A model generated the notes under the pieces. The model was given only the letters and a program-made list of their open reading frames with translations. It ran no database searches and was not told the origin of the DNA. Below, one piece after another: positions 8,863 to 39,632 of a stretch of DNA of 64,000 bases. Numbering within the stretch: position 1 is the first letter of the stretch; each line of letters begins with the position of its first letter. A program made the translations under genes and the position numbers. Source of the DNA: Opitutaceae bacterium (GTDB lineage: Bacteria; Verrucomicrobiota; Verrucomicrobiia; Opitutales; Opitutaceae); NCBI GenBank assembly GCA_947474995.1, contig CANJNJ010000003.1:1-64000 (forward strand), read 5' to 3'.

Positions 8863-8935
8863 CGCGCCCAGGGCGGCTCCGTGAAATTAAGATTTCAGGG
8901 GACACCCCAGAACTTGGGAATTGGGCTATCTCAAG

Positions 8936-8987
8936 GTAGGGACCGCTCTCCGAGCGGTCCGCGGACGTCTCGGAGAGACGTCCCTAC
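8936..8987. repeat. Compound palindrome, GTAGGGAC family
   Basis: GTAGGGACCGCTCTCCGAGCGGTCC is followed by GGACGTCTCGGAGAGACGTCCCTAC: two local hairpins whose outer arms GTAGGGAC / GTCCCTAC also pair. Related copies occur at 12593-12616 and 31395-31450. Confidence 0.85.
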
Positions 8988-9012
8988 CCGCCAAAACCGA
9001 TTCCTTTCCCAA

Positions 9013-12587: not shown

Positions 12588-12592
12588 TGTGG

Positions 12593-12616
12593 TAGGGACG
12601 GCTCGCCGAGCCGTCC
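12593..12616. repeat. GTAGGGAC-family palindrome downstream of recA
   Basis: GGACGGCTCG-C-CGAGCCGTCC, 10-bp perfect arms. It shares its core with copies at 8936-8987 and 31395-31450. It could fold as a hairpin at the recA mRNA end but lacks a U-run. Confidence 0.8.
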
Positions 12617-36188: not shown

Positions 36189-37544
36189 TCACTTATCAGC
36201 GCGGCGCGAAAGGGTAATAACGCACTCGAGATGCCGGGTCTGGGGAAAGAGATCGAACGGTTGAGCCGCCGTCAGCGTATAACCCGCGGCGAGGAAGTGA
36301 GTGAGATCGCGCATCTGCGTGGCCGGATCGCAGGACACGTAAACTACCGCCCGCGGGCCAAACGCGAAGAGCTGCCCGAGGAACGATTCGTCACACCCTT
36401 TCCGCGGTGGATCGATGATCACGACGGTGTCGGCCGCAGGAAATTCCAATCCGGAAAAAATCTTCGCCGCATCGCCGGCCTGAAACATCGCGTTCGTGAT
36501 GCCGTTGGCCGCCGCGTTTTCGCGGGCGAAGCGCACACTGCTTTCGCTGATTTCGATGCCCGCCACCCGCTCAAAGGCGGACGCGGCGGAGAGCGCGAAA
36601 AGCCCGCTCCCGCAATAGGCATCGACCAGAAACCGGGCCCCGCTGGCGGCCGCCTGCTCCCGCACGTGGCGCGTGAACGCAGGCAGGATGAAGGGATTGT
36701 TCTGGAAAAAATCCCGGGCGAGAAAATGGAGCCGCAGGGTCGGCGAAGCCGCGCTCGGCTGTGAGCTGAGGGTTGAGGTCGGAGAGTCGATCCCGGCAAT
36801 GGTTTCCGTGACCACGGCATCGAAATCGGTGGTGACCACGCCGCTGGCCTCGCGCAGCAGCAGCGTGGCACCGCGCAGATAGGTCGCGGCCCGCGCCTGC
36901 ACCGAAGCCCGCACTTCGGTGAGCCGTTGATTGATTCCTTCGGTGGCGATCGGGCAGTTCGGCACGTCGACGAGGTCGAAACGGGTGCCTTGGCGAAGAA
37001 ACCCGATCGGAAACGGCCTCGCCGTTTCCGCCTCCTTTGCGGCGCCCGGCGCCGCAAAGTGTGGCGTGATCTTCGACCGATAGCCGAATTGCCGCGGCGA
37101 AGGAATCACCGGGGCCACGGGAAACGTAATGCCCGCCATGTGCTGCAACAGCTCGGCCACCTGGCGCTGCTTCCACGCGAGCTGGGCGGGATAAGCCAGG
37201 TGCTGGTATTGGCAGCCGCCGCAGCGCCCAAAGAGCGGACACGTCGGCGCCGTGCGCTCCGGCGAAGGCGTGAGGACCTCGAGCAAGTCGGCTTCGGAGT
37301 AATTCTTGTGATTCCGAAACACCCGGACCCGCACCCGTTCGCCCGGCAGCGTAAAAGGCACCATGATCACCCATTTTCCCGCCGCGCCCAAAGGCGTCGT
37401 GTCACCTATTGGGTGACCCGGGGCGTTTGGCACGGGTTCGAGGTCGACGCGCGCGAGGCCGGAACCGAGGTTCGTAAGCGTCACGATGTCCAGTTCGAGT
37501 TCCTGGTGATAGGCGAACGGGTAATCGTTGCGTTGCTTTTTCAT
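36189..37544 (-). CDS. RumA/TrmA-type RNA (uracil-5-)-methyltransferase
   Basis: Start placed at the ATG 37544 (MKKQRNDYPFAYHQELELD); 451 residues. A TRAM-like N-terminus leads to the Fe-S cysteines CPLFGRCGGCQYQHL, with FGYRSKITPHF, RFLVDAYCGSGLFALSAA (SAM motif), VVIIDPPRKGCDESFL (catalytic region) and YVSCDPATQMRDL. It makes m5U in 23S rRNA or tRNA. Two stretches look like late insertions: NAPGHPIGDTTPLGAA near residue 35, encoded by a palindromic repeat, and DSPTSTLSSQPSAASP near residue 265. The ORF extension upstream overlaps the divergent SpoU gene and is not coding. Confidence 0.92.
   Translation of the reverse strand: MKKQRNDYPFAYHQELELDIVTLTNLGSGLARVDLEPVPNAPGHPIGDTTPLGAAGKWVIMVPFTLPGERVRVRVFRNHKNYSEADLLEVLTPSPERTAPTCPLFGRCGGCQYQHLAYPAQLAWKQRQVAELLQHMAGITFPVAPVIPSPRQFGYRSKITPHFAAPGAAKEAETARPFPIGFLRQGTRFDLVDVPNCPIATEGINQRLTEVRASVQARAATYLRGATLLLREASGVVTTDFDAVVTETIAGIDSPTSTLSSQPSAASPTLRLHFLARDFFQNNPFILPAFTRHVREQAAASGARFLVDAYCGSGLFALSAASAFERVAGIEISESSVRFARENAAANGITNAMFQAGDAAKIFSGLEFPAADTVVIIDPPRKGCDESFLGQLFAFGPRAVVYVSCDPATQMRDLTHFLAAGYTLTAAQPFDLFPQTRHLECVITLSRRADK
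37401..37417. repeat. GTCAYCYATTRGRTGAC palindrome inside the RumA homologue
   Basis: GTCACCTATTGGGTGAC. It resembles the perfect palindrome at 38882-38906 inside oleD, and both are read in the same frame (HPIGD versus HLLDD). Confidence 0.6.
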
Positions 37545-37631
37545 TTTGCCCACAGACCACACCAAACACACGAATGCGCCGGAGACGAAGAGGATTTTCT
37601 TTCGCGGGATTAATGTGTTTGGTCGACTTCG

Positions 37632-38453
37632 ATGCCGACTGAGAAGATCTCCAGCCTTCAGAACCCGCGGGTGAAGCACCTCGTGAAGCTGCGCGACCGG
37701 CGGCCGCGCGATGAGGCCGGCGTCTTTTTGGTCGAGGGCTACCGCGAAATCCGCCGCGCGTTGGAAAAAGGCATCGTCCTGCGAGAACTTTATTTTTCGC
37801 CTGAATGGTTTCTCGGCGAGAACGAGCCCGCGTTGCTCCAGCAAGCCGAAATGGCCGGAGCGCAGTTGTTCGAACTCACCAAAGAAGCCTTCGCCAAGGT
37901 GGCCTATCGCGAGCGGCCCGACGGCCTGCTTGCCCTGGCGCCGCAGTGGAAACGCACGCTGGACGATCTGGCGGTCGGGGGCCCGGGCGCGCCGAAGTCC
38001 GATTCTTTCCTTCTCGTGGTCGAAGCGATCGAAAAGCCGGGCAATCTCGGCACGTTACTCCGCGGGGCCGATGCCGCTGGCTGCGATGCGGTTATCGTCT
38101 GTGATCCCGTCACGGATATCTTCAATCCCAACGTCGTGCGGGCCTCGACCGGGGTGTTGTTTTCCGTGCCGCTGGTCGTCGAGGAAAGCGCCAAGGTACT
38201 CGCGTGGTTGCGGCAGAAGAACATTCGTTCGGTCGCGACGACGCCGGGCGCGGAGGCGCTTTATACCACGGTGGATTTGCGCGGACCTCTCGCCGTGGTG
38301 ATGGGCAGCGAGCAATACGGGTTGAGCGAATTCTGGCTCAAGCACGCGGACGCTTTGGTGCGTATCCCGATGGCCGGCCAGGCCGACTCGCTCAATGTGG
38401 CCATGGCGGGGATCATCACGCTGTTCGAGGCCGTCCGGCAGCGCGGCAAGTAG
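37632..38453 (+). CDS. SpoU/TrmH-family RNA 2'-O-methyltransferase
   Basis: 273 residues. N-terminal substrate-binding domain MPTEKISSLQNPRVKHLVKLRDRRPRDEAGVFLVEGYREIRRA, then the SPOUT knot: VVEAIEKPGNLGTLLRGADAAG (motif 1), MGSEQYGLSEFW (motif 2) and RIPMAGQADSLNVAMAGIITLFEA (motif 3). It methylates a ribose 2'-OH in rRNA or tRNA; the target position cannot be assigned. Divergent from the RumA homologue with 87 bp between starts. The TAG stop is part of a GTAGCGCC repeat arm. Confidence 0.93.
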   Translation: MPTEKISSLQNPRVKHLVKLRDRRPRDEAGVFLVEGYREIRRALEKGIVLRELYFSPEWFLGENEPALLQQAEMAGAQLFELTKEAFAKVAYRERPDGLLALAPQWKRTLDDLAVGGPGAPKSDSFLLVVEAIEKPGNLGTLLRGADAAGCDAVIVCDPVTDIFNPNVVRASTGVLFSVPLVVEESAKVLAWLRQKNIRSVATTPGAEALYTTVDLRGPLAVVMGSEQYGLSEFWLKHADALVRIPMAGQADSLNVAMAGIITLFEAVRQRGK

Positions 38454-38536
38454 CGCCGATCTCCGACCGGCGGACTCCCTTCGGACCCGGAAAAGTTGCC
38501 GGCCTTCACCATCGCCCATCGGAGACGGGCGCTACT
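38450..38536. repeat. GTAGCGCC inverted repeat supplying two stop codons
   Basis: GTAGCGCCGATCTCCGACCGG at the left and CCATCGGAGACGGGCGCTAC at the right are the arms. The TAG in the left arm ends the SpoU-family gene, and the TAG on the minus strand in the right arm ends oleD. Confidence 0.85.
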
Positions 38537-39587
38537 TTCCGCCCCGCCGCAAGTGCTCGATTAATTCCGCCGTGCCTGCGGCCATCGTCACGCGCGGCAC
38601 ATATCCGAGGTCGCGGCGCGCCGCGGTGAGATCAAACCAATGTTCCTTGGCGAGCTCCGCCGCGATAAACCGGGTCATCGGCGGCTCGCCCCGCAGCGGC
38701 AGGAGGCGCCACGCCCCCTCGCACACAGCGCCCAACGTCGAAGCGGCCCGGAGCGAAATCCTTTTCGTCACGCGCGGTTCCCCCAGGGCGTTTAGCAAGC
38801 CATTAATCCAATCCCACAGGACGACCGGCTCGCCGTTCGTAATGAAAAAAGCCCGCCCCCCCGCCGCGCGCGGCCCGGTCGGTTTGTCATCTAATAGATG
38901 ACAAACTTCCAAGGCCCGTTCGGCGAGGAGATGGGCGTCGACGGCGTTTTCGACGTGAACCAGGTCCACGCGATTTTTCCCGGCGCCCACGATCCGGAGC
39001 CGGCCGGCGCGGGCGCGCGCCAGGATTCGCGGGACCAAATGGGGATCGCCCACGCCCCAGATGAGATGCGGGCGAAGCGCCACGGTCTGCAGCGCGGAAG
39101 AATGGGCAGCGAGCACTTCTCGCTCGGCGATCGCTTTCGTCAGGGGATAGGGACTGGGGCAGGCCGATGTCCGGGGCAGCGACTCATCCGCTCCCGCCAG
39201 GTCGAGGCCATTGTAAACGACACTCGGGGTGCTCGTGTAGATCAGCCGCCGGACGCCATGCGCGCGACAACCGTCGAGCACGGCGCGGGTGCCTTCCACA
39301 TTGGTGCGAAAGAACTCCTCGTACCGACCCCAGACGCCGACCCGGGCCGCCACGTGAAAGACCGTTTCCATCCCGGCACAGGCCGCGCGAACCAAATCGG
39401 GCTGGTCCAGCGAGGCCCGGATAAACCGAACGCCACGCGATTCAAGATCCGGCGCCGGCGTGCGGCCCAAGAGAGTCACGGCGCGACCAGCTGCCAGCAA
39501 TCGCTCCACCAGCCGACGGCCGAGGAAGCCCGTGCCGCCGGTCACGAGAACCTTGCCGTGTGATGTGTGACTCGTGACGTGTGACAA
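38532..39587 (-). CDS. oleD: OleD-like 2-alkyl-3-oxoalkanoate reductase (olefin biosynthesis)
   Basis: 351 residues; the only workable start is a TTG at 39587. NAD-binding VLVTGGTGFLGRRLVERLL, VFHVAARVGVWGRYEEFFRTN, RRLIYTSTPSVVYNG, SPYPLTKAIAEREVL (YxxxK), VALRPHLIWGVGDPHLVPR and ITNGEPV match OleD of the head-to-head olefin pathway, which reduces the beta-keto acid to a beta-hydroxy acid. The start MSHVTSHTSH is encoded by a tcac repeat, and CHLLDDKPTGPRAAGG before AFFITNGEP appears as an insertion encoded by a perfect palindrome. It follows oleC by about 50 bp. Confidence 0.88.
   Translation of the reverse strand: MSHVTSHTSHGKVLVTGGTGFLGRRLVERLLAAGRAVTLLGRTPAPDLESRGVRFIRASLDQPDLVRAACAGMETVFHVAARVGVWGRYEEFFRTNVEGTRAVLDGCRAHGVRRLIYTSTPSVVYNGLDLAGADESLPRTSACPSPYPLTKAIAEREVLAAHSSALQTVALRPHLIWGVGDPHLVPRILARARAGRLRIVGAGKNRVDLVHVENAVDAHLLAERALEVCHLLDDKPTGPRAAGGRAFFITNGEPVVLWDWINGLLNALGEPRVTKRISLRAASTLGAVCEGAWRLLPLRGEPPMTRFIAAELAKEHWFDLTAARRDLGYVPRVTMAAGTAELIEHLRRGGK
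38882..38906. repeat. Perfect 25-bp palindrome inside oleD
   Basis: GTTTGTCATCTA-A-TAGATGACAAAC: 12-bp perfect arms around one base, inside the oleD coding sequence at a position where comparable proteins seem to have a short loop. Confidence 0.9.
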
Positions 39588-39632
39588 GCAGGGAAAGAAA
39601 ACTTAAATCTCGTCACATGTCACATGTCACAC
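39556..39632. repeat. TCAC-rich repeats between oleC and oleD
   Basis: gtgtgatgtgtgactcgtgacgtgtgac and cgtcacatgtcacatgtcacacc are inverted relative to each other, on either side of the oleD start. Similar stretches occur at 17411-17438 and 23459-23487. Confidence 0.65.

Follow-up and report, generated by a model that had tools for sequence, protein, structure and literature searches.

Two unrelated genes of an Opitutaceae bacterium carry short palindromes that are read in the same frame, which raises the question of what kind of repeat these palindromes are and how they came to lie within protein genes. The features concerned, in the window (the whole stretch of 64,000 nucleotides that was analysed), are:

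36189..37544, minus strand: host gene, RumA/RlmD-like uracil-5-methyltransferase, 451 aa (PF05958, PF01938)
37401..37417, plus strand: 17-bp palindrome copy of the GTCACCTATTGGGTGAC sub-type, within the RumA homolog
38532..39587, minus strand: host gene, OleD-like, NAD-dependent epimerase/3-beta-HSD family, 351 aa (Pfam PF01073/PF01370)
38882..38906, minus strand: 25-bp palindrome copy of the TTTGTCATCTATTAGATGACAAA type, within oleD; sequence GTTTGTCATCTAATAGATGACAAAC

Both palindromes were found where the original prediction had placed them, and the matching pentapeptides that it had named were read as predicted. The sense strand of oleD is TGT CAT CTA TTA GAT GAC AAA (CHLLDDK) at the palindrome, and that of the RumA homolog is CAC CCA ATA GGT GAC (HPIGD), so that the two genes share the frame CAT/CAC-xxx-xxx-GRT-GAC (HLLDD and HPIGD). 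The RumA copy is imperfect, with one T.G pair. A scan of the window detected five palindrome matches (0.55 expected), a number reached by none of 100 shuffles, and Rfam gave no match at the two sites.

The draft genome (5.24 Mb, 261 contigs) contained 70 forward and 67 reverse matches with at most two mismatches, compared to 1 and 1 for a reversed control. With the stricter pattern TGTCAYCN{3,9}GRTGAC there were 60/60 matches, compared to 0/2 for the control. The family therefore occupies about 60–70 places in the genome, against about one for the reversed pattern, and the enrichment for which a search had been proposed is present. Although a draft of 261 contigs might be suspected of assembly artefacts, the chance that artefact or coincidence accounts for the repeats is practically negligible, as the reversed control gave just 0–1 places and the same palindrome family was found in G045, whose genome is a single contig, as well as in independent records.

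The general form of the family is TGTCA-NN-TATTA-NN-TGACA, in which the NN arms vary among genomes yet remain complementary. The repeat is about 23–35 bp long and fully self-complementary. The form seen most often in this genome is GTTTGTCATCTATTAGATGACAAAC, and its extension is rich in G+C and complementary in part; the GTCACCTATTGGGTGAC sub-type of the RumA copy is rarer. According to the genome, the bases around TATTA are TC..GA, CC..GG, CG..CG or AC..GT, and different sub-types coexist within single genomes. Arm positions 6 and 14 formed Watson-Crick pairs in 92 of 105 cases and positions 7 and 13 in 93 of 105 (37.5 and 64.8, respectively, expected from base frequencies), a complementarity that was not demanded by the search pattern.

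Copy-specific outer arms in this genome included five runs of at least 5, where 1.4 were expected (p = 0.002). In other genomes, pooled with species mixed, two long runs were found at the same positions where 0.2 were expected (p = 0.016), but mean pairing was not raised (p = 0.68), and copy-specific outer arms were therefore rejected as a general feature. The flanks of 50 palindromes of this genome (L001–L056) were C-rich for about 100 bp before the palindrome and G-rich after it, the reverse of what this genome shows at its other convergent gaps. The idea that the C-rich and G-rich flanks form a long duplex was rejected, native pairs being just marginally above swapped ones (p = 0.046).

With just TGTCA, TGACA and three weak bases at the centre fixed in the pattern, 0–115 copies per genome were counted in congeners and confamilials within Opitutaceae, some congeners having none, and two copies at most in other families of the order. 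The stricter TGTCANNTATTANNTGACA, searched in 289 genomes of the phylum, was found in Opitutaceae alone, save for one single match. An exact 23-mer was searched in one genome per species (84,980 species) and was found in 55 stretches, solely in records titled Opitutaceae, Opitutae, Opitutia, Opitutus or Verrucomicrobia. Genome G029 holds one copy of the TGTCA-NN-TATTA-NN-TGACA family. Essentially, the palindrome family is patchy inside Opitutaceae and nearly absent elsewhere in the phylum.

Fifty copies of this genome were placed relative to genes using a home-made gene finder based on codon usage, for which the window served as training set. Of these, 43 were non-coding: 26 lay in tandem, 14 in convergent and 2 in divergent gaps, and 1 at a contig edge; the remaining 7 were in genes. 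The background, taken from 464 kb of this genome, is 87% coding, and its intergenic space is 51.9% tandem, 14.9% convergent and 33.2% divergent. Palindromes were thus over-represented between convergent genes (p = 0.003) and under-represented between divergent genes, i.e. at promoters (p = 2e-5), indicating that the copies shun genes and promoters and prefer 3' ends. The genes that flank intergenic copies are seldom common to different species.

Copies frequently occur in pairs. Thirty unique pairs were spaced at 53–58 bp, most commonly 54, with dissimilar spacers, and one genome contains triplets at 54–55 bp. Bigger arrays, with spacings of 66–67 and 89–91 bp and some similar spacers, were seen in freshwater Opitutia MAGs (L179 and L200). 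A longer repeat in G045 (L221:1721-2278) consists of three units that resemble one another, of about 270 bp and each with one CCCATTAGG-type palindrome.

The original prediction had described a repeat inserted in the same reading frame in two unrelated genes. The common frame is real. In-gene copies lie in one frame in 36 of 37 cases (the exception is a doubtful 85-aa frame) and encode a similar heptapeptide, C-H-x-x-x-D-K/T. However, TGTCATCTATTAGATGACA and its complement have two frames closed by stops, one by TAG or TAA and the other by TGA, leaving CHLLDD/CHLIDD as the sole open frame. Because the other two frames hold stops, the common frame of the in-gene copies represents survivorship, and the same applies to the RumA copy on the strand of its gene. 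A frame preference due to selection was rejected, since nearly all copies have just one stop-free frame.

In OleD, the palindrome encodes residues 228–234, at the end of a helix (212–229) and into the loop that leads to a strand (245–249). The AlphaFold2 model has a mean pLDDT of 52 in residues 231–240, with residues 234–236 below 50. Among about 30 species aligned, seven carry the palindrome in this same loop (G000, G003, G004, G005, G016 with three copies, G018 and G025), and one decayed trace was seen (G013). In a tree of OleD and RumA, whose deeper nodes are weakly supported, the carriers are not grouped as a single clade, and the sub-type of the oleD copy is abundant in its own genome wherever this was checked (G000, G004, G005, G016 and G025). 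The loop is filled in some species and empty in others, in sequences too diverged for boundaries to be drawn; at this position OleD of another genus (G034) reads WHLKGD and has no palindrome.

Both segments had been described as extra in comparison with ordinary family members. This holds for OleD, as most congeners have a loop of variable length there and no palindrome, and the orthologs with the residues CHLLDDK or CHLIDDK do carry a palindrome, contrary to the proposed refutation by orthologs that have these residues but no palindrome. In the RumA homolog, the palindrome is in the N-terminal TRAM part, within a loop that varies in all relatives aligned, and it occurs in this genome only. 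Repeated inverted TGTGACA/TGTCACA units were also observed in the region that separates oleD from the AMP-ligase-like gene upstream of it (window 39558-39632), and possibly form a long hairpin separate from the palindrome family.

The remaining in-gene hosts in this genome encode UvrA, RsmB/F, a methyltransferase and a bacterial sugar transferase. Five of the six in-gene host genes carry in-gene palindromes in other species too, in a set of loci chosen for holding palindromes, with some genomes partial and random genes of this genome as comparison. For OleD, UvrA, RsmB/F, the methyltransferase and the sugar transferase, the palindrome of the other species aligns with that of this genome or close to it. 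Third codon positions of the orthologous host genes are 42–62% identical between species, and the palindrome site was identical at 18–20 of 21 bases in six comparisons with the TC type in both species. In the sugar transferase, two species have different sub-types at the same place, with 14 of 21 bases identical. Persistence at host sites could reflect repeated hits on the same loop, homogenisation of copies or selection on the palindrome. That these old shared sites, palindromic and of the sub-type of the host genome, reflect concerted evolution of 25-bp repeats, or selection by a putative Opitutaceae-specific DNA-binding protein reading pairs about five helical turns apart, is possible but doubtful.

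REPs with a GTAG tag, and their dimers (REPINs/BIMEs), are associated with RAYT transposases, and GTAG families are known in Opitutus terrae (PMC3733652). The Opitutaceae palindromes resemble them in being palindromes of 20–40 bp with tens to hundreds of copies and a patchy distribution between species, in lying mainly in convergent and unidirectional gaps near 3' ends, in frequently forming pairs 20–100 bp apart, and in having sub-families with complementary stem changes. Such REPs likewise occur mostly 3' of genes, in convergent and unidirectional gaps (PMC3733652). Some in-gene copies are also shared, including uvrA, which hosts a REP in O. terrae (PMC3733652). Unlike GTAG REPs, the Opitutaceae palindrome has both ends paired and a conserved TATTA centre; an unpaired GTAG tag was absent from the aligned flanks of 50 copies, which contain TTT/AAA and further complementary bases instead.

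Mobilisation by a RAYT transposase was rejected. Y1_Tnp was searched in 95 genomes and the neighbourhoods were scanned, and none of the Y1_Tnp loci sampled was flanked by these palindromes. Three genomes with 32–46 copies each (G042, G048 and G054) had no Y1_Tnp match above the cut-off, and copy number correlated weakly with Y1_Tnp number across the family (rho 0.39). RAYT action in trans is nevertheless possible, because the sampled Y1 genes mostly had no neighbouring GTAG hairpins either. ORFs between palindromes 250–4000 bp apart were looked over by eye for an autonomous element, and no common gene stood out.

Canonical GTAG REPs (GTAGGGAC..CTCTCCGAG..GTCC) exist separately in this genome, with 28 exact copies of one form, and the window contains a pair of them:

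8935-8988: inverted pair of canonical GTAG-tagged REPs (GTAGGGACCGCTCTCCGAGCGGTCC / GTAGGGACGTCTCTCCGAGACGTCC), of the same 28-copy form

Thus both kinds of repeat occur side by side. A weaker GTAG REP copy was seen at window 12592-12615.

A second class, CGTC-tagged REPs, includes RPE-4 and RPE-6 of Rickettsia, and a dedicated transposase is not known for it; its members have an unpaired tag end, a stem of 8–9 bp and an unpaired tail, mostly CCA (PMC3733652). In-gene copies and the lack of a known dedicated transposase are common to this class and the Opitutaceae family, and the tag may be TGTC and the stem may start with AT, comparable to TGTCAT in the Opitutaceae palindrome. In the latter, however, TGTC pairs with GACA, there are a few more base pairs around the centre, and no tail is conserved. 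As an unpaired tag and a link to a transposase were looked for and neither was found, the family was classed neither as GTAG nor as CGTC REPs.

Taken together, the palindromes are probably a short (about 23–35 bp), self-complementary, REP-like repeat that spread in trans within Opitutaceae and survives mainly 3' of genes. New copies would be made when the hairpin disperses in the form of single-stranded DNA, or through a putative enzyme acting in trans; neither direct transposition nor a target duplication was seen. Within genes, the survivors would be those copies that landed in a loop tolerant of them and in the single frame without stops, and continuing insertion or conversion between copies may keep those of a genome alike and perfectly palindromic, even at oleD. 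The five of six host genes that are shared count against random insertion, which would not predict such sharing. The original prediction had instead compared the palindromes with the in-frame selfish elements of Rickettsia, and the similar heptapeptide in unrelated genes resembles such elements. This applies to an in-gene minority; the family as a whole is mainly an intergenic 3' repeat, as REPs are. Elements specialised for protein insertion are a very improbable explanation, given that Rickettsia palindromic elements are about 150 bp long (PMC10969869) and often lie in genes, that a genome with 87% coding sequence has just 7 of 50 copies inside genes, and that the frame is dictated by stop codons.

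On a rival reading, the palindromes are recognised by a DNA-binding protein particular to this lineage, with a nucleoid, chromosome-organising or regulatory role; selection would keep them palindromic, and many would serve as two operators separated by about five helical turns. The sharing of host genes, the near-constant spacing with unlike spacers, the compensatory arm changes, and palindromes identical at 20 of 21 bases in orthologous genes with third positions 42–49% identical are all consistent with this. It is nevertheless unlikely, because species of one genus have from 0 to 115 copies, flanking genes of intergenic copies are seldom shared, copies are scarce at promoters, and several sub-types occur together in one genome. 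Less likely still are RNA 3'-end hairpins, acting after genes as bidirectional transcript-end or mRNA-stability elements. The position 3' of genes with its convergent-gap excess, the hairpin stability (core, about -12 kcal/mol; 35-base consensus, about -28 kcal/mol) and the sign of the C-rich and G-rich flanks agree with such a role, but the stem is followed by AAAC and then G-rich sequence, with no U-run, and the palindromes are thus not intrinsic terminators. Copies also exist inside genes, the two window sites have no Rfam match, and many congeners that must end transcripts too have no copies.

The palindromes are an untagged REP-like family, which behaves as REPs do. The suggestion of a new family for the phylum is borne out in that the repeat is dispersed and enriched, and no mention of its core strings was found in the literature searched, but its REP-like kind is already known. 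The finding adds, to a phylum in which GTAG-tagged REPs have been reported (PMC3733652), an untagged REP-like family for which no partner transposase is visible. With the same in-gene site occupied by different sub-types according to species, in genes whose third positions are 42–62% identical, it also offers a naturally occurring test of REP spread and persistence.
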